In this document: positions 45,363 to 63,972 of the stretch, piece after piece
Layout of the letters: each line of letters begins with the position of its first letter
Numbering within the stretch: the first letter of the stretch is position 1
Source: Bdellovibrionota bacterium
GTDB taxonomy: Bacteria; Bdellovibrionota; Bdellovibrionia; Bdellovibrionales; Bdellovibrionaceae
Assembly: GCA_963170155.1 (NCBI GenBank)
Contig: CAUJGP010000023.1
Location: 62,001 to 126,000 of the forward strand
Direction of reading: 5' to 3'
Length of the DNA: 64,000 bases
Translations under genes and position numbers: made by a program
Notes under the pieces: generated by a model
What the model saw: the letters and a program-made list of their open reading frames with translations, nothing else
Databases searched by the model: none
What the model was told of the DNA's origin: nothing

Positions 45363-45755
45363 AATGAGAATTGTAGAATGAAGCCGCCGAAGACCCTCTC
45401 AACCTTAGGGAGCCTGTCGCACCAACGCACCTAGAACGTGTCGTTTCAAATTTTCGTTTTTCTATTTGTTAAGGAATTTTGATCAGTTAACCAATTTCTT
45501 CAGGTGCGAAATTGGTTGCGGGGGGAGGATTTTAACATTTGAGACAAGAATAGCGGGCCATTGGGTTTTGGGTCAATTTTTTCAACTCGTTGGCACGAGG
45601 GGCCATGGCGGGGCCACCGGCGGGGCGGTGACTGTCTATGGGAACAGCCTACAAAGGGCTTCGGGGGGGCACTTCGTAGGGTCTTGTGGGGCTGTATTGC
45701 GGTGGGATTTGTCGGCGCGGGTCATGTTCGTTACTATTAAAAAGGTATGGGAAAG
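45363..45755. other. G-rich intergenic region, left edge of the high-GC element
   Basis: Base composition changes sharply here, from AT-rich to G-rich runs. It contains one arm of a 32-bp imperfect inverted repeat (45652-45683) and a candidate promoter TTGTCG-N17-TACTAT (45709-45737) for the following gene. No coding sequence is supported. Confidence 0.45.
45652..45683 (+). repeat. Left arm of an imperfect inverted repeat flanking the 633-aa gene
   Basis: The block CAAAGGGCTTCGGGGG...TCGTAGGGTC matches the reverse complement of 47808-47839 at about 25 of 32 bases. The two copies point inward around the gene at 45756-47657. Confidence 0.55.
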
Positions 45756-47657
45756 ATGAGGCGACCCGCGTGGAGCCGAAAGCCCCCTTCGGAAGCGGAG
45801 TCATTTGCGCTACGGATATGGGCGCAGGAACTCGCGGAACATTATGATTTAGACGAGCATTGGATTGAGAAGATCCTGATCAAGACGACGAACGGGGTTC
45901 GCTTTGATAGCAACCAAAGACGAAAATATGCTGGCACGGAAGTCCTAAAGAACTTCCGCCCTTCTATCGTCAATGCGTTGGGTGCTTTGCCACCTGATCA
46001 GGTTGAGACGTTATTCAGTCAAGACGACGAACAACTGCTTGAACTCATGTTGAATGAAAAACGATGGTCGGAGTTACTGTCGTCACCCATTCCACTTCAA
46101 ACTTATGATCATATTTTGGGTGTTGCTGACGATTTCAAAAAATACCTTGCTCAATCAACGGAGGAAGTCGTTGCGTTTGGCGAGCCACTTAAACCATTCA
46201 ACAAAAGCGAGTGGCTACAACGGTTTTTTACTGACTGTAAAATGGTTCCGCGAATTGAAGCCGACGCACTGGACGGCTTTGGTGACGAAGCAGATACAAT
46301 TCAACCACCTCCTGATCTTCCAAGTTTTGCCGAGATCATGGAGCGGAACGCAAAACTTATTCAGGCTCCGCCATTTGACCCACTTCGCACATACTTGGAC
46401 AGACCGCGACCGATTAGACCGTCTAAATACTTCCGTTCAAGAATCGGCTTGATGATTTTTCGCAAAATCACTCAAAAACAAGAAGAACTTGGCCAGCAAA
46501 TACAAGAAGCACTGAAGACAGAGCATTTCGTTGCCAAGGAAAAAGAGCTTCGCCTCGCACTTCACCGTTTTAGTGAGGACTGCTTCGCTCACTTCGTAAA
46601 TGTGCTTAAAAAGCGCAATTCTCGTGAGGGCGTGATTTTGGCTGAAAAATTAGTGGCATCGTGCTGGAACTCGTTTGCGAAACACATAAACGAACAACAG
46701 ATGGACGTTCTCACCAGAAAAAGCCTCACTTATTTTGGCTTACCAGAATATCCACGAGGTGTTGCCCCTTGGATATATCGCACAACAATTCCTAAAAACA
46801 TTTTCGTCGTTGCTCGGCTGATGGAGAAAATAGTTAGTGGCAAGTGGGATGAAAAAATACAAAAGCCAATTAACGATCTCGGTGAGTTTTTTGCGCATGA
46901 AGACGGCTATCTACGATTTAGGTGTTCCTATTTTCAAGCGTGTGTAGTTTGCGGAAAAGAAACTTTAGATCGTGTTCTGCGCTCATTTGAACACCTGCGG
47001 GATCATGTTCGCAAAGAACAGTTCAAAAATCTTAATGAACTAACTGATACGGCTGTCGCCAATAGTGCTGATAGCAGACACAAGGAAGTTGCCTTTCTTG
47101 ATCAGCGAGCGATTGAGCGCATTAAGGCAATGGGTGGCTATATTGTCTTCCCAGAAGACAAAAGAAAACCGACGTTGATAGAATTAGCGGAAGAAAAACC
47201 TCGCAAAGTAGGCATGATCAATGACTGCGAAGCCTATTTCCCTGAAACTGGCGATCCCATTTTTTTTGATGGACCCACACAAAAGGCCGTTATTCGGTTT
47301 TTATTTTCTAAATGCAATAGAGATCCCAAGTATTCCGCAACTCTGGATGAGATTCTCTATGAGATTTATGACGAAGAAACGGCGAAAAAAAAGCTAAATC
47401 GTCCAAAGTCGAAAAAGTTTAGGATCGATTCAACATGGTTTCAAGGCCATAAGGCATGGGAGTCGCGGTTCATTGATTCAAAAACTACCGACGACGATAT
47501 AACGCTTTACTATTTAAACTTTGATTATCAAAAAATGCCCCCGCGCAGGACTGTATCCACAGATCCAAAGCCTAAAGAAGAAAAGCCAAAGAAAAAACAG
47601 CGCGGGGTCGCCATTACTTTTTCAAACAAAGTGAAAAAAAAGAAAAAGACCGTGTAG
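45756..47657 (+). CDS. Large protein of unknown function with C-terminal winged-helix-like region
   Basis: From the ATG at 45756 (AAAGG 10 bases upstream) the protein is 633 aa; ATG 45747 is also possible, but its ribosome site would be too close. It is basic and soluble, without signal or membrane segments. A mid-protein CxxC (CVVCGKETLDRVLRSFEHLRDH) and a region GPTQKAVIRFLFSKCNRDPKYSATLDEILYEIYDEE...FRIDSTWFQGHKAW that reads like a winged helix are visible, ending in a Lys-rich tail. I recognise no family. Imperfect inverted repeats flank it, and it is followed by a strong terminator. A DNA-related role is plausible but unproven. Confidence 0.7.
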   Translation: MRRPAWSRKPPSEAESFALRIWAQELAEHYDLDEHWIEKILIKTTNGVRFDSNQRRKYAGTEVLKNFRPSIVNALGALPPDQVETLFSQDDEQLLELMLNEKRWSELLSSPIPLQTYDHILGVADDFKKYLAQSTEEVVAFGEPLKPFNKSEWLQRFFTDCKMVPRIEADALDGFGDEADTIQPPPDLPSFAEIMERNAKLIQAPPFDPLRTYLDRPRPIRPSKYFRSRIGLMIFRKITQKQEELGQQIQEALKTEHFVAKEKELRLALHRFSEDCFAHFVNVLKKRNSREGVILAEKLVASCWNSFAKHINEQQMDVLTRKSLTYFGLPEYPRGVAPWIYRTTIPKNIFVVARLMEKIVSGKWDEKIQKPINDLGEFFAHEDGYLRFRCSYFQACVVCGKETLDRVLRSFEHLRDHVRKEQFKNLNELTDTAVANSADSRHKEVAFLDQRAIERIKAMGGYIVFPEDKRKPTLIELAEEKPRKVGMINDCEAYFPETGDPIFFDGPTQKAVIRFLFSKCNRDPKYSATLDEILYEIYDEETAKKKLNRPKSKKFRIDSTWFQGHKAWESRFIDSKTTDDDITLYYLNFDYQKMPPRRTVSTDPKPKEEKPKKKQRGVAITFSNKVKKKKKTV

Positions 47658-47674
47658 TGCTACACGGTCTTTTC
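47645..47674 (+). terminator. Perfect 13-bp hairpin terminator overlapping the stop codon
   Basis: AAAGACCGTGTAG and CTACACGGTCTTT pair perfectly and are followed by TTCTCT. The TAG stop of the unknown gene lies in the left arm. Confidence 0.8.
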
Positions 47675-47807
47675 TCTATTCAATTCATATAATTTTCTGC
47701 CTGATTTTCAGGGCTATCCTCATTCATTCCCATTTTGAGACTTCGCTTTATCTAATCACTACGAGCGGTTAGATCGCGTCCGTATTCGTTTCTCCATTTA
47801 CCAAAGT

Positions 47808-47839: not shown

Positions 47840-47865
47840 TTGACTGGTGGAAAGGAGAAACGATC

Positions 47866-50025
47866 ATGAAAACTAAAACCGTTACCAACAAACAGTCCCT
47901 TTCCAAAAACAAAACCGCTATCAAGGCGGTCAACCCCAAGAGCCAAGTTGCTCATTGGATTTTGCTAATCACCGCACTTTTTAATCAGGTGCGGGATTGG
48001 GTTTTTAACAAAATCCAAAATGTCCGCACTCAAGCGGTCAACTTACTCAAGGCATTTCCTTGGGTGAAAAACAAAAAGCCCAAGCATGAACCGTTAACAA
48101 TTTTTGAAGCATTTGCCGGAATTGGTGGAACTCGCATAGGTGCGGAAAGTGCGGGGTTTAAAGTGGTCGCCGCAAGTGAAATTGACCCTCACTGTATTGC
48201 TACCTATCAAGATAATTTTGGTGACCGCCCACTTGGGGACATTACTCAACTCAAAGCGGAAGATTTACCACCCTTTGATATTTTGACGGCCTCAACACCG
48301 TGTCAGTCTTTTTCTACCGCAGGTAAACGGAAAGGTATGAAAGACCCTCGCGGGCAACTGTTCTATGACACCTTGAGGATTGCGGACGGTCACCCTGAAC
48401 ACCGTGTTCTGTTCATTGAAAATGTAAAAGGCATGAAGACGACCAATAGTGGTCGTGGATTAAAAACTGTTCTCAATGAATTAAAAGCCCGTGGCTACTA
48501 CACTCACCACCAAGTCTTGAAAGCCTCTAACTACGGAGTGCCTCAAGGCCGTGAACGACTTTTCATTGTGGCTTTCCGTGAAAATGTGCCGTTCAGTTTT
48601 CCTAAACCCACCGTGTTGCCTGCGGTCAGTGGTGATATTTTGGAGAAGTCTGCTCACAAAAACTTCTATCTTACTCAAGCCCAAATTGACCACCGTATCC
48701 AAAAGAAGAAAGACTATGACAGCAAAGGGCATAACTTTGGTTTCAAAGTCCTCGACCCCAAAAAACCAAGCACCACACTTCTCAAGTCTGCCAACTCTTC
48801 TTTGGAAAAAAATCTTGTGGCGGTTCCGCTTGAGAAAAATGCTCCTAAAAGCCGTGGGGTGATTGAGCTTGAAGTCAAAGGTGGAAAGAAAAAGCAATTC
48901 CACTTGAGACACCTCACTCCACGAGAGTGTGCGAGACTTCAAGGCTTTCTTGACAGTTACAAACTCACCTCGTCAGGGGCGGATACTTATGAACAAATGG
49001 GTAACTCCGTTCCTGTTCCCGTTATCCGTGAGATTTTTAAAGAAATCCTCGTGTCACTAAACAAGTGGGACAAAGGAGAGCGGGTCAGCAATCAACCTGT
49101 TAAAATAGTTGACCCCGCTCCACCTCAAAGAAAAAAGCCCAAGAAAGCTAACAAGTCCGCAACTACAAAAAAGACCAAAGCTCCAAAAGTTGCGGCAACA
49201 GCCAAGCCTACTAAAAAACAAAAGCCACCACTTAAAGTTGTGACTTCAACAGGCAAGGCTCAACCAGTGACCAAAAAATCAAGCCGTGCCCCTAAAATGG
49301 GGTTGGCCTTGGTCCAAGGCAACTCGGCCGCACTACCGCCTGTATTTCCAAAGCCTAAAGTGACCACAGATAAAACTTTGGAAGGTCAAATCTTGGGTTG
49401 GAAAAAGAAAGACAAGGCCAACCATTTCATGACCCCCAAGTGGTTAGTGGATTTTATTAAGCTCGTGGTGTGTCCTCTTGAGTTGGACGCCGCCTCAAGT
49501 CCAGAGGCCAATCTGGTTCATAAGTTTAAAAGGATATTTACTCTCAAAGATAATGCCCTTACCCAGTCTTGGAAGGTTGAAGACGGCCATGGAGTTTTCG
49601 TCAACCCACCATACTGTGGAAAACTGAAGCGAAAAAAAGGTAAGTCGGCCAAGAAAAATAAGAACGGTAAAATCAAAAAAGCTCCCCGCTATAAATCCCA
49701 GTTGCTTGATTGGGCAAATAAGATTGTTGCCGAGTATAAGCAAAATGCTCAACCCATTTTTGTCTTGGTTCCCGCCCGTGGGCCGGAGAGCAAGTGGTTC
49801 CAGGTATTTTTCAAAAATGCCTCGCACATTGTTTTCCTAAAAGACCGCCTCGTTCACAACGACACAATCTCAACCAGTAAAGCCAACTTTTCCTCGGCAC
49901 TTATTGTGTTCGGTGGCGACCAACTTGGTGAGCGGTTGGATTATTTGTCCGAGCTTGGTGAGTGTATGGAGACCTCCGCATACAGGATTTCAAAGGCCCA
50001 AAGCCAAACAAGCAATGCGGCTTAA
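47866..50025 (+). CDS. Fusion of cytosine-C5 DNA methyltransferase and phage-type adenine-N6 DNA methyltransferase
   Basis: AAGGAG lies 8 bases before the ATG at 47866. The 719-aa protein has a cytosine-C5 methyltransferase at about 76-400: motif I FEAFAGIGGTRIGAE, catalytic motif IV TPCQSFS (about 144-150), ENV of motif VI (FIENVKGM), motif VIII QGRERLFIV, and motifs IX-X RLQGF...QMGNSVPVPVI. A Lys/Pro/Ala-rich linker (about 405-500) leads to a Dam-phage (N-6-adenine) methyltransferase at about 515-705, with HFMTPKWLV, LELDAASSPEAN and catalytic NPPY (about 580-583). The chain should make both m5C and m6A. A hydrophobic stretch at about 28-40 is odd. No restriction partner is adjacent, so epigenetic or anti-restriction use is likely. 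Confidence 0.88.
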   Translation: MKTKTVTNKQSLSKNKTAIKAVNPKSQVAHWILLITALFNQVRDWVFNKIQNVRTQAVNLLKAFPWVKNKKPKHEPLTIFEAFAGIGGTRIGAESAGFKVVAASEIDPHCIATYQDNFGDRPLGDITQLKAEDLPPFDILTASTPCQSFSTAGKRKGMKDPRGQLFYDTLRIADGHPEHRVLFIENVKGMKTTNSGRGLKTVLNELKARGYYTHHQVLKASNYGVPQGRERLFIVAFRENVPFSFPKPTVLPAVSGDILEKSAHKNFYLTQAQIDHRIQKKKDYDSKGHNFGFKVLDPKKPSTTLLKSANSSLEKNLVAVPLEKNAPKSRGVIELEVKGGKKKQFHLRHLTPRECARLQGFLDSYKLTSSGADTYEQMGNSVPVPVIREIFKEILVSLNKWDKGERVSNQPVKIVDPAPPQRKKPKKANKSATTKKTKAPKVAATAKPTKKQKPPLKVVTSTGKAQPVTKKSSRAPKMGLALVQGNSAALPPVFPKPKVTTDKTLEGQILGWKKKDKANHFMTPKWLVDFIKLVVCPLELDAASSPEANLVHKFKRIFTLKDNALTQSWKVEDGHGVFVNPPYCGKLKRKKGKSAKKNKNGKIKKAPRYKSQLLDWANKIVAEYKQNAQPIFVLVPARGPESKWFQVFFKNASHIVFLKDRLVHNDTISTSKANFSSALIVFGGDQLGERLDYLSELGECMETSAYRISKAQSQTSNAA

Positions 50026-50039
50026 TATAATAGTTTGGT

Positions 50040-50069
50040 GGTGAGTGACCAGAAAAACTGGCCACTCAC
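50040..50069 (+). terminator. Hairpin after the fusion methyltransferase
   Basis: GTGAGTGACCAG-AAAA-CTGGCCACTCAC pairs over about 11-12 bp with one mismatch. No T run follows. A second hairpin, GAATAGG/CCTATTC, lies at about 50086-50114. Confidence 0.45.
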
Positions 50070-50243
50070 ATATAGAAAAAAGCATGAATAGGTCGCTAAT
50101 AAAGTGGCCTATTCAAAAATCATATTTAGAAAACACTGTTTAATAATTATTTTTAAGAAAAATATCCGACCGTCAAAAAAACTCCTATTTAAAAAGTAAC
50201 GGCGCTCGTGGTGAGGGCCGCAACCAAAGAAAAGGAGTAATGT

Positions 50244-50564
50244 ATGAAGCCGATTAAACTAACTGCCCTAACAAAGGGCCAACTTGAGGAAGTGAAAGTT
50301 CTGCCCGTGAATGTTGAAGACTACACGGAAGAGATGATTAATGATTGCTTCAAAGAAATCAAATTACTGGATCAGTATAGCCGTGGGCATGGATATCTTG
50401 TGCGAGCGACAGACGAAGTGATGTTTCGTATGTGTTGCCGCGACCAAGAAGAACACAACGTCGCGGACAAGCGCTGGATCGAAATTGAAGGCGACTTTTA
50501 CGATGTTGATACTGTGATCGAGGCACTGGAAGACGCAGGCCATGACGTTGAAAACGATCTTTAA
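50244..50564 (+). CDS. Small hypothetical acidic protein (106 aa)
   Basis: The protein is acidic and soluble, with a helical N-terminal half and a beta-rich WIEIEGDFYDVDTVIEALEDAGHDVE end. No family is recognised. AAAAGGAG 7 bases upstream makes it a confident gene, and a strong terminator follows. Small acidic proteins near methyltransferases on mobile elements can be DNA mimics or anti-restriction factors; that is speculation here. Confidence 0.65.
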   Translation: MKPIKLTALTKGQLEEVKVLPVNVEDYTEEMINDCFKEIKLLDQYSRGHGYLVRATDEVMFRMCCRDQEEHNVADKRWIEIEGDFYDVDTVIEALEDAGHDVENDL

Positions 50565-50599
50565 CTAACCAAGGTAAAACAAATGGAACAAACTTAATG

Positions 50600-50630
50600 A
50601 AGCACCCGAAAAATGGGTGCTTCTTTTTTT
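50600..50630 (+). terminator. Rho-independent terminator
   Basis: AAGCACCC-loop-GGGTGCTT followed by a T run (50624-50630), 36 bases after the small acidic gene. Confidence 0.85.
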
Positions 50631-51228
50631 GAACAGAGCCAACCAATGACCCACCTGCCGTTTTTAATAATTCACCCACCAAGCCTGCCGTCCAGATTAT
50701 TAAATACAAATTATTAAAACCAAGCCAAAATCCACCCAAACCACCAACTGACCGCACGACTTTAAACGGCTCTGGCTCGCCCGTGGCGGAGTTTTCTGGG
50801 GCTGTGAGTAGGTCAGCCTATACCGAGGCTCTCTGTGGGCATTTAAAGCCGTTTAAGAAAACGGCCAAAATTATTAAAAACCAGACCCCCTCGGCATTTT
50901 TAATAATTCCTGTGTCCAGAGTTTTAGGTGGAAATAATAGTTCTTTAAAGAAAATGCCCCATCATTCATTGCCACACCCACGATCAAGAACTGCGCCACT
51001 CTCATAACGGTGCGCCCTACGTTCAGCGATCTCAAACGCTTATGGCTACTTGCAATTATTTTTAATTTTCCCGCGTTCAAACGAAATCAAACGCGCCAGG
51101 ATCTAATTATGGGCGTTCGTGAGTTTGAAAGTTCAATGCCTCGTAGCCACAAGAGAGAAAAGTTTTTCTTTGGGGAAACTGGCTTGAACTTCTGCTCACT
51201 CGCTCACGATAGGAACGGAGTAGCCCCG
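50631..51228. repeat. Non-coding region with repeated ATTATTAAA boxes, origin- or operator-like
   Basis: ATTATTAAA or its complement TTTAATAAT occurs at 50663-50671, 50696-50704, 50710-50718, 50870-50878 and 50899-50907, with a sixth copy at 50139-50147. A 10-bp inverted repeat TTAAACGGCT / AGCCGTTTAA lies at 50762-50771 and 50847-50856. No intact gene is supported. The clustering of AT boxes in GC-rich DNA next to an XRE regulator suggests iterons of a replication origin or a regulator array. Confidence 0.5.
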
Positions 51229-51543
51229 ATGGATAAAAAGATGGAGGTAAAAATAGGGCCGACTTTAATTCGGCTGATGAATGAGCAAGGGCTGTCGCTC
51301 AAAGAGCTGTCGTTTTCCGCAGGTGTTCCACTGTCAACGATCTCCCACATGAGGAGCAATCGTCAGCCGCGGGACATTTCAACGGTGATGGCGGTCGCTC
51401 AAGCCCTTCATGTTTCACTTTTCTACTTGCTCTACGGACAAGACGAGCCTTCGCAGAAAAGTGAGTTCATTAGCGAACTGATGGCGGAACTATTCTCTGG
51501 GTCTTTTGAAATTAGGGTCAAAAAAATACGAAACAAGTCTTGA
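51229..51543 (+). CDS. XRE-family HTH regulator
   Basis: From the ATG at 51229 (GGAG 8 bases upstream) the 104-aa protein has an XRE helix-turn-helix: LIRLMNEQGLSLKELSFSAGVPLSTISHMRSNRQPRDISTVMAVAQALHVSLFYLLYG. Upstream in-frame starts to 51010 extend it with poorly conserved sequence. Its ribosome-proximal end abuts the next gene's leader by 10 bases, so it may be cotranscribed with the lipoprotein. It may bind the repeat region upstream. Confidence 0.8.
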   Translation: MDKKMEVKIGPTLIRLMNEQGLSLKELSFSAGVPLSTISHMRSNRQPRDISTVMAVAQALHVSLFYLLYGQDEPSQKSEFISELMAELFSGSFEIRVKKIRNKS

Positions 51544-51553
51544 GGAGGTATCT

Positions 51554-52636
51554 ATGAGACTTTCAATTTTAGCTTTGCTGGTTTTTGGCTTAACCGCTTG
51601 CGGTGGTGACGGAGGTAGTGGCGGCGCAATTCCGTCTATTGGTGATGGGGTTTATGGTTGCACCCATTCTGGCGCAATCAACTTTAACCCATCGGCCACA
51701 ATTGACGACGGCTCATGCTCGTATGGTGGCGGAGTCGGCGATGGTGTTTCTGGCAATGCTTCTTATTATGGGTTTTCTACGTCTGGAAATGAAATCGCCA
51801 ACAACTTGATGGAGCCAAGCTCGCTATTCAACGTCATCGTGAGCAATGAAATGTATGTTGAGGTCAAAAACAAAACGACCCGTGATCTTGACGTGGCTGT
51901 TTATCAACCTACTTGCCCGATGAGTTCAGCACTTTACTATTCGGCGGTGCTTTTGACGAATACGAGTGGCGCTCAAGCGGTCACGGTTTTTGTAAACACC
52001 TATGCCAACACCTTGAAAATTACGAGCCATGCCTTTAAGCAACAAAGTGTGCCATCTATCGTGATGGCTCGCTATGACGTTGATGCAGGAACGGATATTT
52101 CATTTGCCTGCACCAACGGGAAAATCACAGCCACCGATGGCACGCAGATTTATGCGAACGGCAAAACTCTGGTCATGAAAAACGGAACGAACCTTTGGCT
52201 TGGTTTTGAGCAAGCAACTCTCAACATTTCAAATCCAAACACCTTGCGCTTGTATTACGACTCCTATAACCAGATCGACTCCACAGGATATGCTCTTGGC
52301 GCTCTCATCGCGAATGGCTCAACCGTTGGTCAAGGTGGTGGCAATGAGGCATTGAACTCGTCAGGGTTCAATCTGTATAACGGATCAGCCCACACATTCT
52401 TTGGTGACGGTTACTTCAAAAAATACGGCAACCAAATGTCGGATCAAAGTAGCCATGCCCTCGTTATTGCGAACTCATACACTGGAGCCGTGGCGACCGC
52501 ATTGATTGGAAACTTCAACGGCACAAATGTTTTTCTGATGGCTACGCCTACAAGCTACACGACTCTGTTTTATTCTGGTCAACCTGCGGACTACTACACT
52601 GGCACGGGTGCCTTGAGTATTGGGATCGGGCAATAA
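51554..52636 (+). CDS. Lipoprotein with a GC-DDGSC calcium-type repeat
   Basis: GAGGAGG lies 5 bases before the ATG at 51554. The 360-aa protein has a canonical lipobox (GLTAC, Cys about 17), then GGDGGSGG and one repeat of the exported-protein motif GCTHSGAINFNPSATIDDGSCSY, known from secreted proteins of Bacteroidetes and Bdellovibrio-like bacteria. The remainder is Ser/Thr/Asn-rich and beta-rich, like an adhesin. The function is unknown. Being on a mobile element next to an XRE regulator suggests a surface-exclusion or attachment role, as inference. Confidence 0.7.
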   Translation: MRLSILALLVFGLTACGGDGGSGGAIPSIGDGVYGCTHSGAINFNPSATIDDGSCSYGGGVGDGVSGNASYYGFSTSGNEIANNLMEPSSLFNVIVSNEMYVEVKNKTTRDLDVAVYQPTCPMSSALYYSAVLLTNTSGAQAVTVFVNTYANTLKITSHAFKQQSVPSIVMARYDVDAGTDISFACTNGKITATDGTQIYANGKTLVMKNGTNLWLGFEQATLNISNPNTLRLYYDSYNQIDSTGYALGALIANGSTVGQGGGNEALNSSGFNLYNGSAHTFFGDGYFKKYGNQMSDQSSHALVIANSYTGAVATALIGNFNGTNVFLMATPTSYTTLFYSGQPADYYTGTGALSIGIGQ

Positions 52637-52676
52637 TGCTCGATCCTTTGGATGAACGAATGGATTGGAGGTTTTT

Positions 52677-53243
52677 ATGATAGCAGGACTTTTAATCGCG
52701 ATCCCAGGTTTACTTTTAATGATAGTCCCAATGATTTGCGGAATGTGGGCGCTGGTGTGTGTGACGGGTTTATTGATTGATGTGATTCGCCATATTGGAT
52801 TCACATTCAAAACTTGGTTCAAGCCCCATATCAACCATGTTCACTTGACCGATCATGAAATTGAAACTCGATACCGTGAGTTAGATATAAAAAAACACGG
52901 CTACAATCCCATGCGCCATGACTTCCACATAAAAGAGTTGTTTCCCAAAAAACCAGAAGTTGAAAAAATTAAGATTGCGGCAAAAGAACTATTCCCGAAC
53001 CGCTATCATCAGCTCATGCCCACTGGTGGAAAGGATGACTACCATATCGCCCGCAGCTTTTTGACGAATATGGCGGTAGAGCGCCACCATCAACTGACGG
53101 TTGGACAATGGTCGGATGAAAAACAAAAGCAGTGGCTCGCTATGCCGTATCTACCAGAGGTCATGCAGGAGGTTGACGACGAGTTTGTGAATTGGTGTTT
53201 CCTGGCGGTTGGCCGCGAAGAAAAGGAACGCTTGGCGAGTTAG
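52677..53243 (+). CDS. Membrane-anchored hypothetical protein
   Basis: From the ATG at 52677 (GGAGG 5 bases upstream) the 188-aa protein has two close hydrophobic helices (MIAGLLIAIPGLLLMIVPMICGMWALVCVTGLLIDVI) and a soluble, His-rich C-terminal domain (HLTDHEIETRYRELDIKKHGYNPMRHDFHIKELF). No family is recognised. It follows the lipoprotein gene by 40 bases and overlaps the convergent 74-aa gene by 4 bases. Confidence 0.6.
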   Translation: MIAGLLIAIPGLLLMIVPMICGMWALVCVTGLLIDVIRHIGFTFKTWFKPHINHVHLTDHEIETRYRELDIKKHGYNPMRHDFHIKELFPKKPEVEKIKIAAKELFPNRYHQLMPTGGKDDYHIARSFLTNMAVERHHQLTVGQWSDEKQKQWLAMPYLPEVMQEVDDEFVNWCFLAVGREEKERLAS

Positions 53244-53464
53244 TAGCCGTAAAGGTGGCGCTGGGTTTCGCGGATCAACCGTAAGACGTAAATCTCAACT
53301 TCGGGTGAGACGGACGCGTAATACTTGACTCGTGGAGTGCCGTCGTCTTCAAAAGATAGAACTGCCAGATGGTCATGGTCATTGTCCCAAATCAGGTAAC
53401 GAATCTTGGGGTCTGGCAGTTCAACAAACGCCGTATTCCGAAGTGACTTTTCTTTTAAGCTCAT
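53240..53464 (-). CDS. Small hypothetical protein (74 aa)
   Basis: The 74-aa soluble protein (LPDPKIRYLIWDNDHDHLAVLSFEDDGTPRVKYYASVSPEVEIYVLRL) has alternating strands and a final helix. No family is recognised. AAGGAG at 7-nt spacing gives a good start. Confidence 0.6.
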   Translation of the reverse strand: MSLKEKSLRNTAFVELPDPKIRYLIWDNDHDHLAVLSFEDDGTPRVKYYASVSPEVEIYVLRLIRETQRHLYGY

Positions 53465-53589
53465 AAAAAATACTCCTTTCTTTTGGTTTCAAAAAACACC
53501 ACGCAAAAAATTGAAATAGCGTCTTTCATTGTTAAATGGATTTCTCAATGTCCCACGGTCATTAGTTGTCACGCGCACCAGAAGACACC

Positions 53590-53607
53590 CCAGAATAATT
53601 ATTCTGG
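53590..53607. promoter_or_regulatory. Perfect 18-bp palindrome
   Basis: CCAGAATAATTATTCTGG at 53590-53607 is a perfect dyad between the 74-aa gene and the winged-helix gene, 8 bases before the latter's stop. It could be a dimeric-regulator operator or a terminator stem; no T run follows. Confidence 0.5.
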
Positions 53608-53614
53608 ATATACT

Positions 53615-54037
53615 TTACGTATTCCTCCCGCTCAAAATCTCGTCAAATAGTCCAACCGCAGAGTCATTCACTGATCCTGCGTTGGTTTCCTTGGTCTTCT
53701 CGATCAAATCTAAAACAGATTTGATCTTGATGTGATTGAGCTTTTCTTTTGGGTTTATGAAAATGAAGTTAGAAGAGAAATCTTCAATCTTATTTCCTCG
53801 GCTGTCGCACATACTAATGAACCCATAATCTATCAGTTGCCTGATCGCCGAACGGCAAGCCCCCATTGATATTGAAAGCCTTTTGCAGATGCGGCGGCGG
53901 CTCAAAAATATGATCCGTTTTTCGTTACCCATGCCCGAAACCTCACGGACAAGTTGGGCATAAATTAAAAGCCGTAGCCCAACCTCGGACAAAAAGTTTT
54001 TATTCAGCAAAATAATGTTCATGTGTTCCAGTTCCAT
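53615..54037 (-). CDS. Winged-helix/HTH protein of the mobile element
   Basis: GGAGG 6 bases upstream supports the ATG at 54037. The 140-aa protein has an N-terminal helical part (LLNKNFLSEVGLRLLIYAQLVREV) and a winged helix (IIFLSRRRICKRLSISMGACRSAIRQLIDYGFISMCDSRGNKI). Such proteins serve as regulators or partial replication initiators on plasmids. No specific family is recognised. Confidence 0.6.
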   Translation of the reverse strand: MELEHMNIILLNKNFLSEVGLRLLIYAQLVREVSGMGNEKRIIFLSRRRICKRLSISMGACRSAIRQLIDYGFISMCDSRGNKIEDFSSNFIFINPKEKLNHIKIKSVLDLIEKTKETNAGSVNDSAVGLFDEILSGRNT

Positions 54038-54065
54038 AAATGACCTCCGTGTAAATAAATGGATC

Positions 54066-54290
54066 ATGGGCTTCCATTTAACCCGTATGAAACAAGCACG
54101 ACCAACGGCGGGGCGTCCGCGAAAAATCAAAACCATCGTCATTGAGTGGCTGATCATTTATTGGCTTGGAACTCTTTTAGGTGGCCTTGGGTGGCTATGG
54201 CTTGGGGGTGGATTGCCTGCGCTGGCAATGCTGGCCATTTCGGGGCTTCTGTGGTGGCTGGGCAGCCTTGTGGATCTTTGGTGGCCGTAG
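54066..54290 (+). CDS. Small membrane protein with basic N-terminus
   Basis: The 74-aa product has a basic start (MKQARPTAGRPRKIK after a second ATG at 54087) and two hydrophobic helices (IVIEWLIIYWLGTLLGGLGWLW; LPALAMLAISGLLWWLGSLV). Neither ATG has a good ribosome site. It is divergent from the winged-helix gene and followed by another tiny membrane protein. Confidence 0.45.
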   Translation: MGFHLTRMKQARPTAGRPRKIKTIVIEWLIIYWLGTLLGGLGWLWLGGGLPALAMLAISGLLWWLGSLVDLWWP

Positions 54291-54332
54291 AGATTTGCGG
54301 TTTCTATTTAAAGAACGAGCAAGGGAGATAAC

Positions 54333-54449
54333 ATGGATGTTTCAATTTACTGGGTTTTAGTTGCGTTTGTTCTGGGTTTTGCGCTTGGCTATGAGGAGAC
54401 TCTTGCCAAGAAAGAGAAAAAGAAAAAACGAGACACTGACGATGAATAA
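54333..54449 (+). CDS. 38-aa single-span membrane peptide
   Basis: AGGGAG lies 5 bases before the ATG at 54333. The peptide is one hydrophobic helix (MDVSIYWVLVAFVLGFALGY) followed by a Lys/Asp/Glu tail (EETLAKKEKKKKRDTDDE). Strong ribosome site and classic small-protein topology support it. The function is unknown. Confidence 0.55.
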   Translation: MDVSIYWVLVAFVLGFALGYEETLAKKEKKKKRDTDDE

Positions 54450-54505
54450 TGCCTGATTGAACACCACGGGACAAAACTCCGTTTCTTCCTTTCACGGAGT
54501 AGCGT

Positions 54506-55378
54506 TTAGTCTCCCTTGCTCATTTTCATTTCTTTTTTTAGCGACTCCAACTTGAGCGATATTTTGCCGAACGGGATTCCACTATCTATCCAGCTTTCAA
54601 TTTGATCAAAGACCGCAATATCTTCCTCGTTATGTAGTTTCGAGCGCCGTTCAGTGAAAATGTAGTGGAGCCGTTCAAGATAAGTTAGCTTGTGTGCAGA
54701 AAATCCGTGATCGTGAAAGCTGCGGGCCACTTCAATGTCGTCCGTATACTGATAGTATTTTGAAGCCAACGAAATAAAACTCAAGTCGTCGTCCAAAATA
54801 TAGGCCATCCGATCCAACCACTTTTTATCATCAGTGTTAGGCCATTGAACTTCTGCGGGTTCGTTAGGGCTTTGTTGCAGATCTCGACTTTGCTTGCGCC
54901 GTCCTTTTTTCCCGTTTGCGTAAGCAGGAACGGATTTTTGAAAGGAAATCTCAAAGGCGAGTTGATCTTCAAAGCCCTTGTGTTCAAATGGGCGCGGTTC
55001 TTTTCCAAGTTTTAAAGTTTCAGCGACGATCCGTTCTTGTAATTCCTTGGTTACGCGCCAGCGATACGGATCACCTTGAAAAGTGTATGTGTTGGATTCC
55101 CGCCGTGGTGGGTTGCTTTGTTTCCAACCGCCACGGTCAATGTCAATGATATGTAAGAACTTGAGTCGCCTGATCGCTCGTTCCAGGTGATAAGGCCCAC
55201 ATTCACAATATCGTTTCAGTTGTTCACGGCTCCAATTGCATACTCCGTCGGGACAACTTGAAAACAGAATCGCAAGGTTGCGTTCAATGACATTTAAAAA
55301 CCAGTTTTGAATAAGGACGTTATAGACTGGCGTGAAGTAAAGTAATAACTCCCGCGGCTTTTTGTTTTTCTCGTTCAT
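54506..55378 (-). CDS. HTH-containing protein, possible replication initiator or regulator
   Basis: GGGAGGG lies just before the ATG at 55378. The 290-aa protein has an N-terminal HTH-like part (FLNVIERNLAILFSSCPDGVCNWSREQLKRYCECGPYHLERAIRRLKFLHIIDIDRGGW) reminiscent of plasmid replication or mobile-element regulators, then a helical, charged C-terminal half. No family is recognised. It lies between the small-gene cluster and the defence operon, transcribed leftward. Confidence 0.55.
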   Translation of the reverse strand: MNEKNKKPRELLLYFTPVYNVLIQNWFLNVIERNLAILFSSCPDGVCNWSREQLKRYCECGPYHLERAIRRLKFLHIIDIDRGGWKQSNPPRRESNTYTFQGDPYRWRVTKELQERIVAETLKLGKEPRPFEHKGFEDQLAFEISFQKSVPAYANGKKGRRKQSRDLQQSPNEPAEVQWPNTDDKKWLDRMAYILDDDLSFISLASKYYQYTDDIEVARSFHDHGFSAHKLTYLERLHYIFTERRSKLHNEEDIAVFDQIESWIDSGIPFGKISLKLESLKKEMKMSKGD

Positions 55379-55624
55379 AGACCCTCCCTTTTTATGGTCA
55401 CGGTCTATAAATGGATTTTTATGAAACCTCCCAGAGATCACCCATTTTTGCTGAATGGCGTATCCCCAGGGTCCAGTCTTCTAAAAGAAGATATAAATAG
55501 AAAATAGCAAATAACAGGGATTGTCGGCCTATTGGCCGAACAAATAATAAATGGATCGCATTTTACTGAAACTCGTCTTCTGCTCCAGTTGCCCCTTGAG
55601 GGGGCTTGGAGCAAGCCGAGGGCG

Positions 55625-58600
55625 CTACACCGTTGCCTTGTGATACTTGCTATCCCTGTTGTCAAATGCGGGGCGAGTGCCCTCCAGAATATCAACAATA
55701 GCTTTGTTGACCTCGGCATTTTCAATGGCGCCAGAGATATAGTGAACTTTATTTCCGTTAGCCTTATCAATTTTTGCGACAATGATTTGTTCAGCGTCGC
55801 AGACAACAGCAAGATTGGGGTTGTGGGTCACCAAGAAAAGTTGCCTATTCTTTTTCGCTGACTTGATACAAGGAACGAGAACATTGAAAATCGTTTGGTT
55901 ATCAAGATTTTCTTCGGGCTGATCAACAATCAGTGGTCTGTCGTCTTTGTCCACCATCAAATAGAAAATGAGTAACAACGTTCCGCGCTCACCAGGCGAA
56001 AGTTGCTCAAGACTTTTTCCGTTGAGTTGAAGTGAATATCGCGGCTCCAGATACTCCAGACCAAAAATATAACAGTATAAATCCGCAGGCGATCCCTTTG
56101 CTTGGAGTTCAAACTTATTGGCCTTTGCCTTGCCATCACGATCATCATGTTCAAGTAAGTAAAAGATTTTTCCCACAAAATCCTTTACCCCCTCGGCGGT
56201 GTTAAACGAAAATAAATCCAAGGTCTTTTTAATCAACTCTTCGCTATTGTCTGTTCCATAGAACGAACCAACTTTGTTTCGGTTAATCTGTGAAAAGAAA
56301 GTTTCTTTGAAGCCTTTGTCAACGATAGACACGTCAAATGACATCTTGAATGTGTCACCACCAAACGGATTGGATTCAACAAACTTTTGAACAGGGGCGT
56401 AATACTCTTTATAGACATCAGCGAGACCACTGATTTTTGAATAAATCTGTCCAACGATTTGATCGCGTTGTTCTTCAAGTTTCGTGACCTTCGCGGGGAT
56501 GTTGCTGATCTCACTCAACTGCGAGTTATAGTAACTAATGGTGTCTGGATTATTCTCATCGCCTTGGACTTGCTCAACAGCCTTGTTCCATCTTTCAGTT
56601 TCCTCAAGAAACTTTTGATAGTTTTTGCTTGGCTCGTCCACCTTTTCAGCGAGGGAGGCAATTTCGGTTTTGATATTCTCTTTTTTGTTCACGAGACTTT
56701 CGGGCTCATCGGGGCTCAATAACTTATTTTTTGAGTTCAAGTCAGCTTTCACTTTATCTAAAGCGCCCTTGAGTCCAGTTAGATCCGCAACATAGGTGAA
56801 AAAGTTAACATCAGTAAAGCCATTCGCATCCAGAGCCTCTTTGATTTTTGAAACCTTGTCGGCGGTTTCCTGCTCCAAGTTTTTGATCTGCGACTCTGCT
56901 TTTTCTAATGAGGCTTTTTTCTTTGTTAGTTCCTGGATTTCTTTTTCTGTAATCGTGATTTTACCTGAAACCTCAAGCTCTTCTTTTTGTAGAGCCTCAA
57001 GTTTTTTTACGGATTTTTCTATTTCAGGATCGGAACCTGCAACTGGCTTTTGAACATCCTTGGGTTTTGCATCCTTGATGGCTTTGAGTTCAGCTTGTTT
57101 TGCTGAAAGTTTATTGGTGATAGATTTTTTGTAGTCTTCCGTCAGTTTTTCTCGGCACTCAATGACCTGATTGGCGACCTCACGGAGTTCCAGTCTGTAT
57201 TTTTCAATTTCTTTCGTGGTTTCCTCTGTTTTGAACTTGAGAAGGTCATCCAAGTTTTCATAGGCAAGGCGGTCTTCTGGTTTAATGTGCGAAAAAATTA
57301 CCGCTTTCAATTCTTTATCAAACAGGCTCTCCTTGGATTTTATTTCGTTACAGAGTTTTTCAAGATATGACTGCGGAATGTATTTTACTTTTTCGTAGGC
57401 TGATTTCTCTGGGACTTCGTTTAAAGTTTTTTGCGAAGTATCCCCATTCTCCCATGTGAGAGTAGCTTGATAGTTTACAGCCTTGATCCCTTGTTTTTCT
57501 TTGAACTTTTCACCGTTCAAAAAAGAAAAGTTCTCATGCAGAGTTGAGTTTCCAAGCAATCCAAGAATGTCAGCAAGTGCGCTTTTCCCAGATCCCTTGT
57601 TTCCAATAATGGCGACCAATTCAGGATTAAAGTGAACGGTATTATCAAACCATGCTTCGGGTAACTTGCTATTGGCCGTTTTCTTGACTTCAATTTTAGA
57701 AATGAACTTGGTTGCCTTGGTTGAAATGATTTTTAGCTTTTCTGGTTTTTCACCGATGAAACAACGGGACAATGGCTCAACCTTGACCTGCTTTAATCCC
57801 TTGAATGTTGCTTCGGCCTTTAACCATGTCGCTCTATTGGAAGGGTAAACTCCATAGTCAGCAATCTTGTGAGCATCCGATCCCGACAATACAGGTTTAG
57901 GCTGTCCGCCAATCGTATTGATGAAATCTTTTAAAAATCGCTTATTGTCGTCAGTCTCTCGACCCAAGAACAAATCAATGTTGGCTTGGCTGCGCGACTC
58001 AAAGAAATCCGCCTTGCTTAAAAAATACCTGTCCTCGTGTGGATTTGTTTTCCAGTCCAGTTTTTCAATTCCGTTTGAGGTTTCGTATGGAAGAATCACC
58101 AGACACTTTTCTTGCCCCAGCGCTGTTACGGCATCCTCAAATGATTGCCGCGTAATTCGTATCGTTTTACATCCAAGCTCATAAGCGATGTCGTCATTAT
58201 TTTTGTAGTCACCCGTGCTGATATATTCTTTAGCTTTGTCCTCGGTCAGTGTTCTTGCGCACTGAATGATAGATTCCCTTGAGAGAGGGCGATTGTTGCC
58301 AAGGATTTGTAGCTTGCCTTTGAAGTCCTGCAATTCTTGGTCAGTTACCGATTCGTCAAATATGACATGAATGTTCAGCCTGAAATCGGTTGGAGCCTCA
58401 ATGCGCAACTCCATTCCAGGGAATAATGTTTTCTTGAGCGGTGTCGTGGGATTTCTTTTTAGGTATTCCCTGATTTTTAGAACGCCATCAAAAGTAAAAT
58501 AATCCATGACAGAAAATGCCACGGGTTCAATCGCATTAAGTTTTTCAATTATTTTCTTACAGGACTCATCCGCCTCTTGGGCGGTCATCGCAGTAAACTT

Positions 58601-58687
58601 TTTCCCGTCATTCCAATGAAAAGATGCAGGGGTATGAATGTGTAGATCCCACTTCCTCCATACTGAACCTTGACTCAAAACACTCAT
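55625..58687 (-). CDS. PHP-domain / SMC-like ABC ATPase (TrlF-type)
   Basis: AAAGG lies 8 bases before the ATG at 58687. The 1020-aa protein has an N-terminal PHP phosphoesterase domain (DLHIHTPAS about 14-22 and GSDAHK about 269-274, likely metal ligands). An SMC/Rad50-like ATPase follows: Walker A IIGNKGSGKSALADILG (about 361-377), a long coiled coil with many Lys/Glu heptads (about 480-730), signature LSPGERGTLLLIFYL, Walker B RPLIVDQPEENLDN and switch His in FLVTHNPNLAVV. This fits TrlF-type proteins. It closes the leftward type III R-M operon, so a nuclease-like defence role is likely, though not established for the family as I know it. Confidence 0.85.
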   Translation of the reverse strand: MSVLSQGSVWRKWDLHIHTPASFHWNDGKKFTAMTAQEADESCKKIIEKLNAIEPVAFSVMDYFTFDGVLKIREYLKRNPTTPLKKTLFPGMELRIEAPTDFRLNIHVIFDESVTDQELQDFKGKLQILGNNRPLSRESIIQCARTLTEDKAKEYISTGDYKNNDDIAYELGCKTIRITRQSFEDAVTALGQEKCLVILPYETSNGIEKLDWKTNPHEDRYFLSKADFFESRSQANIDLFLGRETDDNKRFLKDFINTIGGQPKPVLSGSDAHKIADYGVYPSNRATWLKAEATFKGLKQVKVEPLSRCFIGEKPEKLKIISTKATKFISKIEVKKTANSKLPEAWFDNTVHFNPELVAIIGNKGSGKSALADILGLLGNSTLHENFSFLNGEKFKEKQGIKAVNYQATLTWENGDTSQKTLNEVPEKSAYEKVKYIPQSYLEKLCNEIKSKESLFDKELKAVIFSHIKPEDRLAYENLDDLLKFKTEETTKEIEKYRLELREVANQVIECREKLTEDYKKSITNKLSAKQAELKAIKDAKPKDVQKPVAGSDPEIEKSVKKLEALQKEELEVSGKITITEKEIQELTKKKASLEKAESQIKNLEQETADKVSKIKEALDANGFTDVNFFTYVADLTGLKGALDKVKADLNSKNKLLSPDEPESLVNKKENIKTEIASLAEKVDEPSKNYQKFLEETERWNKAVEQVQGDENNPDTISYYNSQLSEISNIPAKVTKLEEQRDQIVGQIYSKISGLADVYKEYYAPVQKFVESNPFGGDTFKMSFDVSIVDKGFKETFFSQINRNKVGSFYGTDNSEELIKKTLDLFSFNTAEGVKDFVGKIFYLLEHDDRDGKAKANKFELQAKGSPADLYCYIFGLEYLEPRYSLQLNGKSLEQLSPGERGTLLLIFYLMVDKDDRPLIVDQPEENLDNQTIFNVLVPCIKSAKKNRQLFLVTHNPNLAVVCDAEQIIVAKIDKANGNKVHYISGAIENAEVNKAIVDILEGTRPAFDNRDSKYHKATV

Positions 58688-58713
58688 CACAACTGCCTTT
58701 CAATAATTCTCCG

Positions 58714-58941
58714 CTACACATCCATCAAATCGGGGTAGTCTTTTAAAACTTCCGCGGGAACGGGCAAGCCACGATTAAGCGCAATCTCAACGGCGCTTTT
58801 GTGCCTTGAAAAGTTACCCGTCACCGTGGAGTTGCCCCGTGGGGCGCCAAACTTGATTTCGTATTCAGCCTTGGTCATCTGCCACGGCTGTTTTTCTATT
58901 CTTTCGGGTGAGCGGTTTTGCTCGTTTAAAATGTCATCCAT
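58714..58941 (-). CDS. 75-aa protein of the type III R-M operon
   Basis: AGGGGG lies 4 bases before the ATG at 58941, 9 bases after the Res stop. It encodes NEQNRSPERIEKQPWQMTKAEYEIKFGAP...HKSAVEIALNRGLPVPAEVLKDYPDL. The closing LPVPAEVLKDYPDL motif recurs at the C-terminus of other DNA-methylation and defence proteins and may be a docking tail. No activity is known. Its tight placement between res and the ATPase gene suggests a component of the same system. Confidence 0.65.
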   Translation of the reverse strand: MDDILNEQNRSPERIEKQPWQMTKAEYEIKFGAPRGNSTVTGNFSRHKSAVEIALNRGLPVPAEVLKDYPDLMDV

Positions 58942-58949
58942 GTTGCCCC

Positions 58950-61631
58950 CTAACTTTTATACTCTTTGAAGTTTTCAACCAGTTGCCTGAAGGTCTTTGG
59001 TTGATACTTTTCAAACGATTCCTGATCCACGAAAACAAAGTCATACTTGATCTTGTTTTGAACACGGTTAATGTCTTCGCACCACTGTTTCAGGCGTGCC
59101 ATTTTTAGCGGAACATCCAGATCCTCAAGCCCTTTAGTTTCCACGATAAAGACTGCGTTGTCCGCGACCTTTACGAAAAAATCTGGGTAGTAATTTGAGA
59201 TGTCGCCGTCCGCGTTGACGTAATCAATTTTGAAATGAACGGCTAAATAGTTTTTGGAGTATGAGATAACGTCATCGCAGCTTTCAAGGTAAGTTGAAAA
59301 CTCAAGCTCAAGGTGACTGTCGCCAATCACTTTGTTGAATATGCTTTTTTTGGGAACAATGAACCCTTGTTCCTTGGCAATGAACGGACGAGTATTCCGC
59401 AATTTGATATGGTCTCGGATCTCGGCGTCGCCCTTGTCTTGAACGGTGAGATCGTTGATTTTCTTTTTGAAGGTTTCAATAATTGTTCTCGTAGCCTCAA
59501 CCTCGGATAAGTTTCTAACGGTGTTGAGGGACTCCAATTCAATTTCCTTGCCAAAAAGATAGTTGCCTATGAACTCTTTGACCTTGCCGTAAAGTATGGC
59601 GTATCCGCTAACCAGACGCAGTTCCTTCATAATGGTTTGAGTGAAGTAGCCAGCCACGCTGTTAAAATCAATCATGCCCGAAGCATCTAAGACCGTCGTG
59701 TGGGTAATGTCGCCCGTCGTAATGTCTTTGAAAACGATCTCGCGCTGTTCGTCCGCAGAAAAATCCCGATATTCAACGGTCTTGTGTCCGAACTTCGCCA
59801 CATTGAGGTCATTCAGGTTCTTATACTCACGGTAAATCCGTGGTGTAAGAATTGGGATCTCAATATCCAGAACGTCCAAGTCCTTTTTCTTATTCTCGGT
59901 ATCCACTTCAACCACGATAGGAGTGCGCGACGTTGAGCCTTTGCCCATTGCTCCACGCTCAAGTTCCACGCCCTCTTGCTGGATGGATTCTACGAAGTCC
60001 ATAAAGGCGGGAGTGCCCACGATACTGACAAACTCTTGAATGTTACCTGGATACATTTTGCGAAGACCGCGCCCCAAGGCTTGCTCTGGCAAAATGTTGT
60101 TTTGAGCGGTGAACGCACGCAAGCCCACAATGGTCGTCACATTACGAACGTCCCAACCTTCACGAAGCACCATGACCGAAATGATCGCCTTGTAAGGACT
60201 GTCATTGCTGTCAATGATATTGGCCTCGTGGCGGATCTTATCCAGCTCCTCTTTGTTCTTGCCTGAATTGGACTCCGAGATTTCGCCGTTGTTTTTGGTG
60301 TGAATAACAAGCACAGCGCCTTTAAGGTCGGCGTAGGTGTTCTCAAGATACTCGGCGACATCATCACAGTTTTTAGTGTCGTCGGTCATGATAAACAGGA
60401 TGGCTTTTTTATCCAGCTTGATATGTTCGTCGTAAGCCTTGCGCCACTCAATCACGCCCAAGTTGATATAGTCCGCGTATTTCTCGGTGAACTTGGAGCT
60501 TTTCTTTTCGGTGAGTTTCGCACGGCTTGGGCCGTCTGGCACAAGTGGGTGTTTCACCACATTTTGCTTGATGGCTTCAACGAGCGGATAATCCGACACC
60601 GTTTGAACAAAGATCGCACCGTTGGAATGTTTCGGGGTTGCCGTTACATCCAGTTGTAGAGAAAGTGCTGTTCCTTTTTGTTGGAGGCGGTTGTGAATAT
60701 CTTGAATAGATTTGAACCACGCATTTTTGGGGTCGTGGACGTGATGGGCTTCGTCGTTAATGACCATTAGCTCGTCAATGTCGCGGACGATTTTACTTAA
60801 ATCCACCGTGGAGTCATTGGTTGAAGTAACAGGTTTCGGCCCCAAGAAATAATCCATAGAGTTTTCGTCATTCGCCGAGGCTGGAATGTCGTTACCCGAA
60901 TAAACGCGGTGAATGTTTGTTAGAAAGATATTGCCCACGGGGTGCGTGACCCGCACGTCGTCTTGAATGTGCAGATCCATTTGGAAGTCGCTTTTCCAGT
61001 CGCGCCCATCGTAACCGTCATGAGGCAACACAGGGTCGTCTTTAAAGAAAATCCGCAAGCCTTGAAAGTCTTTGTAGATGCGATCAAGCACGATGATGTT
61101 AGGGGCAATCACCAGAAAGTTACGAGCCATTGGTGAGTTCTCTTCGTAGAGCTTGTGATAAAAGCTCCACGCCAGGGCAAGGCTAATGACCTTGGTTTTA
61201 CCTGCGCCCGTTGCCATTTTGACTACAAAGCGCTTCCAAGTTTCGTCAAACATATTGGCCGAGATTGCGCCAGAACTGTCAAAACGAATGAGGTCAAACT
61301 TGTCTTTCACTTTCATTACGTCAACGAGGTAAACGATGGTTTCCAAAGCCTCGCGTTGTGAAAAGAAATAACGGAACTCGGACGAGGTGTCCGCTTTCTG
61401 GATCACGTGCGGAGTTTTGAACCACCAATTCAAAAGACTTTTACTGGTCGCGGTGGCGCCCTCGTATCCGCTATCACGGAACTTTTTAACTTGCTTGCGC
61501 AGTTCAGGGACGAGCGGAGGGAGTAGCTTTTCAAAGCTGGTATTCCGCAAAGTTTCGTCCGCGGGGAACCAACGAATTGCAGGATCAAGAACGGCATACG
61601 GTGATTCTGGAAAGTCAGGATGCAAAGCCAT
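58950..61631 (-). CDS. res: Type III restriction enzyme, Res (helicase-nuclease) subunit
   Basis: The 893-aa protein has superfamily 2 helicase motifs: Walker A KMATGAGKTKV (about 138-148), DEAH-type INDEAHHVHDP (about 289), motif III DVTATP, and motif VI EQALGRGLRKM. A C-terminal PD-(D/E)xK nuclease follows, visible as NYYPDFFVKVADNAVFIVETKG (about 815-836). It cuts DNA with Mod after ATP-driven translocation or sliding between head-to-head sites. ATG overlaps the Mod stop (TAATG), with AGGAG upstream. All motifs appear intact. Confidence 0.93.
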   Translation of the reverse strand: MALHPDFPESPYAVLDPAIRWFPADETLRNTSFEKLLPPLVPELRKQVKKFRDSGYEGATATSKSLLNWWFKTPHVIQKADTSSEFRYFFSQREALETIVYLVDVMKVKDKFDLIRFDSSGAISANMFDETWKRFVVKMATGAGKTKVISLALAWSFYHKLYEENSPMARNFLVIAPNIIVLDRIYKDFQGLRIFFKDDPVLPHDGYDGRDWKSDFQMDLHIQDDVRVTHPVGNIFLTNIHRVYSGNDIPASANDENSMDYFLGPKPVTSTNDSTVDLSKIVRDIDELMVINDEAHHVHDPKNAWFKSIQDIHNRLQQKGTALSLQLDVTATPKHSNGAIFVQTVSDYPLVEAIKQNVVKHPLVPDGPSRAKLTEKKSSKFTEKYADYINLGVIEWRKAYDEHIKLDKKAILFIMTDDTKNCDDVAEYLENTYADLKGAVLVIHTKNNGEISESNSGKNKEELDKIRHEANIIDSNDSPYKAIISVMVLREGWDVRNVTTIVGLRAFTAQNNILPEQALGRGLRKMYPGNIQEFVSIVGTPAFMDFVESIQQEGVELERGAMGKGSTSRTPIVVEVDTENKKKDLDVLDIEIPILTPRIYREYKNLNDLNVAKFGHKTVEYRDFSADEQREIVFKDITTGDITHTTVLDASGMIDFNSVAGYFTQTIMKELRLVSGYAILYGKVKEFIGNYLFGKEIELESLNTVRNLSEVEATRTIIETFKKKINDLTVQDKGDAEIRDHIKLRNTRPFIAKEQGFIVPKKSIFNKVIGDSHLELEFSTYLESCDDVISYSKNYLAVHFKIDYVNADGDISNYYPDFFVKVADNAVFIVETKGLEDLDVPLKMARLKQWCEDINRVQNKIKYDFVFVDQESFEKYQPKTFRQLVENFKEYKS

Positions 61632-63760: not shown

Positions 63761-63972
63761 ACATTCCCTTGTTGTTTTTCTTCGGTGGAGTGTGAAGTTG
63801 CGCCGCCGTCCATGACCCATTGATCTACTTCGCGGGTTTTGAACTTCCACAAACGACCCACGCGATGAGCGGGAATCTTTTTCTTTTCAAGCCAACGGTA
63901 AATCGTTTCCTTTGAGACACCTAAATGCGCCCCAATTTCTTCTACCGATAGCCAACGATCTGATTCGCCCAC
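63748..63972 (-). CDS. Excisionase-type HTH heading the type III R-M operon
   Basis: The GTG at 63972 (GGAGG 8 bases upstream) begins a 74-aa HTH_17 protein: WLSVEEIGAHLGVSKETIYRWLEKKKIPAHRVGRLWKFKTREVDQWV. Its stop lies 13 bases inside the Mod gene, so the two are translationally coupled. Such small proteins often head R-M and BREX-like operons and probably control expression. An extension upstream to 63993 lacks a proper start. Confidence 0.8.
   Translation of the reverse strand: MGESDRWLSVEEIGAHLGVSKETIYRWLEKKKIPAHRVGRLWKFKTREVDQWVMDGGATSHSTEEKQQGNVWQS

Follow-up and report, generated by a model that had tools for sequence, protein, structure and literature searches.

The window analyzed here is a stretch of 64,000 nucleotides from a member of the Bdellovibrionaceae (contig CAUJGP010000023.1; genome G000). 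On its plus strand, positions 47866-50025 form a single uninterrupted open reading frame of 719 aa, which encodes a predicted fused C5-cytosine/N6-adenine DNA methyltransferase according to Pfam and to the alignment with a homologue in genome G068. The start codon is the ATG at 47866, preceded by a Shine-Dalgarno-like AAGGAG (47852-47857, +, read from the sequence), and open codons extend upstream to a GTG at 47806. The alignment with the G068 homologue begins at the same methionine as the ATG.

The N-terminal half contains an HhaI-like C5-cytosine methyltransferase domain with catalytic Cys146 (48097-49047, +; residues 78-394), matched as a full-length domain by Pfam DNA_methylase (PF00145, E 2.2e-82). 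It aligns end to end with M.HhaI (E 4e-52), covering motifs I-X, with FAGIGG, PCQ (motif IV, Cys146), ENV (VI), QGRER (VIII, QxRER) and QMGNSV (IX/X) in register. It thus has the motifs expected of this family (I, IV, VI, VIII and IX/X) and differs from M.HhaI-type enzymes in an extra helix-rich N-terminus (residues 1-75), the C-terminal fusion and a different target-recognition region. A Lys/Pro-rich linker follows (49048-49407, +), which is in part conserved in G068 (45% identity over residues 406-500).

The C-terminal half is a Dam-phage N6-adenine methyltransferase domain (PF05869; 49408-49911, +; residues 515-682) with an E-value of 1.2e-15 and a score of 58 bits against a cut-off of 28.1. 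It carries NPPY at residues 580-583 and the motif I/X residues, shares TP, the motif I aspartate (LD) and NPPY with the phage members, and retains the columns that are invariant in stand-alone members from the same bacterial order. Dam-phage proteins, known from phages and prophages, normally stand alone with a length of about 150-220 aa, whereas here the domain is C-terminal to another enzyme. PF05869 scores above cut-off in seven of the 141 genomes of the order, five times as a stand-alone protein and twice as a fusion. Two features set the Dam half of the window apart: RLVH in place of the RLxF of other family members (H replacing F), and a Lys-rich insertion of about 27 aa immediately past NPPY (49615-49701, +), which is missing in G068 on alignment. 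Both may reduce the activity of this half. Structure prediction for the Dam half (pLDDT 58.6) gave T4 Dam and E. coli Dam as closest folds with no match below E 0.001, and is hence a weak hint only.

The initial annotation had proposed a single chain joining the two methylase families, with Dcm motifs, a Lys/Pro linker, a Dam-phage NPPY and two intact active sites. The open 719-aa frame with PF00145 and PF05869 bears this out, each diagnostic motif is intact, and the catalytic columns are kept in the alignments with M.HhaI and with the stand-alone Dam-phage proteins, in line with two intact active sites. We infer that the chain is an orphan-looking m5C and m6A DNA methyltransferase with predicted activity in both halves.

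A search for the same two-domain order elsewhere, as the initial annotation had recommended, recovered the fusion in two of the 369 genomes of the phylum, namely this genome and G068, which belongs to a different family of the same order. The two proteins are 67% identical over the full chain and have a homologous Lys-rich linker. An artefact of assembly or sequencing that joined two genes, which the initial annotation had named as a way in which its reading could fail, is thereby rejected and has next to no probability: the same chain occurs in an independent genome. The annotation had also allowed for one half lacking activity or SAM-binding residues; on alignment both halves keep their diagnostic motifs. 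Between the two copies the C5 half is better conserved (76% identity; dN/dS 0.16/1.18) than the Dam half (67%; dN 0.26, dS saturated). Unlike the two domains, the linker is free to change, and the substitution rates indicate that both halves are under purifying selection. A single clade (support 100/97) unites the C5 halves of the two fusions with a stand-alone C5 methylase of genome G062, so that either the fusion line acquired the Dam half or G062 lost it. Peptide-pattern scans, which are insensitive to distant fusions, found no relative of the fusion in IMG/VR and only unfused C5 enzymes in GTDB. Hybrid Dcm and Dam queries against phages and plasmids are likewise insensitive to distant fusions and gave adjacent genes and no fusion in that part of the high-coverage hits which was inspected. 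The fusion is thus very rare, being present in two of 369 phylum genomes and found in none of the phage, plasmid or viral sets.

The methylase gene is directly preceded by a gene (45747-47657, +) encoding a fast-evolving 636-aa protein that has no match in Pfam, NCBIfam, PHROG or PADLOC. Members of its family are 594 to 682 aa long with 18-25% identity to each other, and were located at window positions 45747-47657, L009:11562-13361, L010:2560-4344, L041:4525-6570 and L040:2400-3740. The gene lies immediately before the methylase in G000, G068 and G062 and one gene off in G078, and the copy in G052 is partial, at a contig end. It diverges far faster than its neighbor (20-25% identity against 50-76% for the methylase). 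A motif search revealed no HNH and no convincing PD-ExK motif, and the invariant residues of the family consist almost entirely of hydrophobic or structural ones, a single acidic residue being among them. A role as a known nuclease was rejected, as the protein has no family assignment, no HNH motif and no invariant catalytic set. AlphaFold2 on three sequences gave a pLDDT of 36. The protein reads as non-enzymatic and perhaps DNA-binding. After the stop of this gene, a pattern scan alone indicates a strong hairpin flanked by T-runs (47643-47674), a candidate bidirectional terminator that in the window may keep the gene apart from the methylase transcript; in G068, scanning gave no equivalent hairpin in the methylase direction.

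Both genes are located in a tRNA-integrated island. Its distal end bears a putative att repeat (45513-45536, +), a degenerate copy of the tRNA-Met(CAT) 3' end in which 22 of 24 bases match. It is the single site found at no more than three mismatches, with 0 expected. The tRNA-Met(CAT) gene itself sits 2.2 kb past the end of the window and adjoins a tyrosine recombinase (L013:429-1778; PF00589, E 2e-9). The resulting island measures 20.7 kb and has a GC content of 44.4% compared to about 38-40% in the flanks. The G068 island (20.5 kb) is inserted in tRNA-Gly next to an integrase (L011:13319-14617) whose PF00589 match (E 4e-4) is below cut-off. At a distance of 20.5 kb there is a degenerate copy of the tRNA-Gly 3' end (20 of the last 24 bases), which lies immediately beyond the counterpart of the upstream gene. 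Both genomes therefore have an integrase by the tRNA and a tRNA 3' repeat at the far end, as in tRNA-integrating elements with a tyrosine recombinase, and the fusion gene resides at the distal end of such a mobile island. The proposal that the gene belongs to a mobile element is thus confirmed in two genomes. Among the ORFs submitted to Pfam, none was named as a relaxase or type IV secretion gene, and no conjugation or packaging genes were identified among the island ORFs searched. In relatives, the MazG-like gene of the left flank is not linked to the core genes of the right flank, so that no empty site emerged.

The islands of G000 and G068 have a common core that runs from the fusion through a 311-aa protein (47866-55441). 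After the fusion follow a 106-aa protein (50244-50564, +; 64% identical in G068, which also holds a second paralogue at 37%), an HTH_3/phage-repressor-like regulator (51109-51543, +; 86% identical in G068 and 66% in G078) and a putative lipoprotein with a conserved signal peptide and a divergent passenger (51506-52636, +), which has no clear Pfam match. Compared with its counterpart at L009:5600-6367, the lipoprotein keeps the signal peptide while the passengers of the two islands are unrelated; the G068 version is 79% identical to a protein in G318 (L061:11478-12245). The remaining core comprises a 192-aa membrane-anchored protein (52665-53243, +; 72% identical in G068, 81% in G318 and 42% in G005), a small protein recognized by island comparison (53240-53464, -), a winged-helix protein (53615-54034, -; 89% in G068, also in G005 and G318) with weak similarity to the N-terminus of replication protein C (E 0.0025), and the 311-aa protein (54506-55441, -; 53% in G068, 42% in G318 and 37% in G005), which might, as a guess, be replication-initiator-like.

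Beyond the core, the cargo differs between the two islands. The window encodes a Ppl-like defence protein with PHP and SMC-type ATPase parts (55625-58690, -; PADLOC Ppl, E 2.8e-28) and the restriction (Res, 58950-61631, -) and modification (Mod, 61631-63850, -) subunits of a type III system, both assigned by profile matches. Together with a small ORF at 58714-58941, these genes make up a block (55625-63850) that is possibly a composite defence system. G068 carries an AbiEi/AbiEii pair (AbiE-type toxin-antitoxin) instead. The statement of the initial annotation that no nuclease gene lies beside the fusion stands for the immediate neighbors, but is incomplete at the scale of the island, which has the type III restriction-modification genes. 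Among the nearest neighbors of either copy, Pfam and PADLOC detected no nuclease family, HNH nucleases included.

Related islands carry other methylases in the corresponding place. G005 and G318 have the winged-helix core protein and its neighbors in common with the fusion islands, and in G005 an N6/N4-type methylase (PF01555) adjoins this core block. In G078, a PF01555 methylase is flanked by a homologue of the HTH regulator on one side and one of the upstream protein on the other, and G062 encodes a C5-only enzyme, again preceded by the upstream gene. Judged by these comparisons, the methylase is an exchangeable module of a mobile element, with no cognate nuclease adjacent to it. The occurrence of another methylase class in the same place suggests that the island needs a methylase and not one particular mark. 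This pattern favours, without proving, a protective or otherwise interchangeable role of methylation over a private switch.

Fusions of the two chemistries have a precedent. M.HpyAV (HP0054) of Helicobacter pylori, which recognizes CCTTC as part of a type IIS restriction-modification system, is a C5 and N6-adenine methylase fusion whose junction was confirmed by resequencing, and each of its about ten homologues belongs to a putative type IIS system that includes a nuclease gene (PMC2816704). The novelty that the initial annotation implied for joining two chemistries does therefore not hold. The present enzyme resembles M.HpyAV in linking a C5 domain to an N6-adenine domain in one chain and differs from it in several respects. 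M.HpyAV is 823 aa long with an adenine half that resembles M2.Hin4II (445 aa), while the present enzyme has 719 aa with a Dam-phage half of about 200 aa; an HNH nuclease gene adjoins the HpyAV type but was not detected here; and the present fusion sits on a tRNA-integrated island. Compared with type II systems in general, it lacks a cognate nuclease next to the methylase, and the upstream protein has no recognized nuclease signature. Adjacent genes of the same two families occur on the mobile genomes of Paenibacillus phage Lily (L084:1210-2402; 4 bp overlap) and Bacteroides phage BT19 (17 bp apart), but there they are separate, with Dam preceding Dcm, the reverse of the order seen here. Solitary methylases of mobile elements share the lack of a cognate nuclease, but the present enzyme combines two chemistries per chain and its class varies between related islands. 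Our literature search found no paper on this fusion beyond M.HpyAV, and all published single-chain m5C and m6A methylases that it returned belong to restriction systems. The present enzyme is thus apparently an orphan, convergent C5 and N6-adenine fusion of the Dam-phage type. The use of a different adenine-methylase family suggests that such fusions arose more than once, and the location of an orphan version on a mobile island suggests that double marking was selected in its own right.

We propose that the enzyme marks the DNA of the island so that the element survives restriction in new hosts, a reading to which we assign roughly even chances. The HhaI-like half would flip out and methylate a cytosine in its own short motif and the Dam-phage half an adenine within a second motif, while the flexible Lys-rich linker would hold both halves on the same DNA. 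Expression in the resident host would mark the DNA of the element, and of the host, in two chemistries at once, and an excised or transferred element would arrive pre-marked. Catalysis, target motifs and the anti-restriction role are inferred. The reading is consistent with the intact domains and motifs, with dN far below dS in both domains of the fusion shared with G068, with the island boundaries, integrases and GC shift, with a shared core that carries different defence cargo, and with the N6/N4 methylases of G005 and G078 and the C5-only enzyme of G062 in the corresponding place. Moreover, no other C5 methylase was found in this genome. Against it, the 636-aa protein accompanies a C5 methylase in three loci and is a possible functional partner for which the explanation has no use.

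Host Dam sets regulatory states in other systems, and the methylase could likewise regulate the island. Acting alongside the core's HTH repressor and winged-helix proteins, its marks would then set how island promoters behave or whether replication or excision takes place. Mechanically this fits equally well, because the marks of a resident methylase are placed all over the host genome. The proximity of the methylase to these genes, one phage-repressor-like and the other weakly similar to a replication protein, and the purifying selection on it are in line with such a role. A motif-specific switch should, however, resist swaps, and the replacement by an unrelated methylase class in related islands, and by the C5 half only in G062, makes a regulator unlikely. 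Protection upon arrival in new hosts remains the simplest and most likely reading of these data. The Dam half could also be a degenerating passenger or a DNA-binding accessory to an active C5 half, as its lower conservation (67% compared to 76%), the Lys-rich insertion and the H for F in RLxF of the window copy, and the absence of a Dam half in the closest relative, G062, might suggest. This is quite improbable given that both copies keep all invariant catalytic columns and that synonymous changes are saturated at a dN of 0.26.

Two further readings assign a function to the upstream protein. It might be an unrecognized nuclease that forms an M.HpyAV-like restriction-modification system with the fusion as modification component, whose two domains would modify opposite strands of a single asymmetric site. 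M.HpyAV and its approximately ten homologues, paired with a nuclease for CCTTC (PMC2816704), set the example. The upstream gene is associated with a C5 methylase in G000, G068 and G062, and its much faster divergence is as seen for nucleases. But the protein shows neither a nuclease family nor HNH nor a convincing PD-ExK, its invariant residues are hydrophobic or structural with one acidic exception, a relative sits beside an N4/N6 methylase in G078, and a candidate terminator lies between the two genes in the window. A C5-only version, as in G062, would also fail to mark one of the two strands at such a site. We regard this system as improbable to the same degree as an inactive Dam half. It is likewise rather unlikely, if slightly less doubtful, that the islands form a family with an interchangeable "identity methylase" (C5 and N6-adenine fusion, C5 alone or N4/N6), accompanied in several members by a non-nuclease partner of about 600 aa that reads or uses the marks. 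Under this variant the partner could for instance control island replication, excision or the exclusion of sister islands, the fusion being a two-letter version of the code. With swapped methylases and an uncharacterised partner, these islands represent a natural experiment on the reasons why solitary methylases are found on mobile elements.

Two islands with the same core lie outside the fusion-bearing genomes. At L060 (G005:C75), the N6/N4 methylase is adjacent to a protein that looks ParB-like, and further methylase-like genes at this locus have a ResIII-domain protein next to them. An AbiE-like pair and a second integrase are present as well. At L061 (G318:C63, 8436-12245), the island core occurs in a distant family of the phylum, on a contig that stops just short of the expected methylase region.
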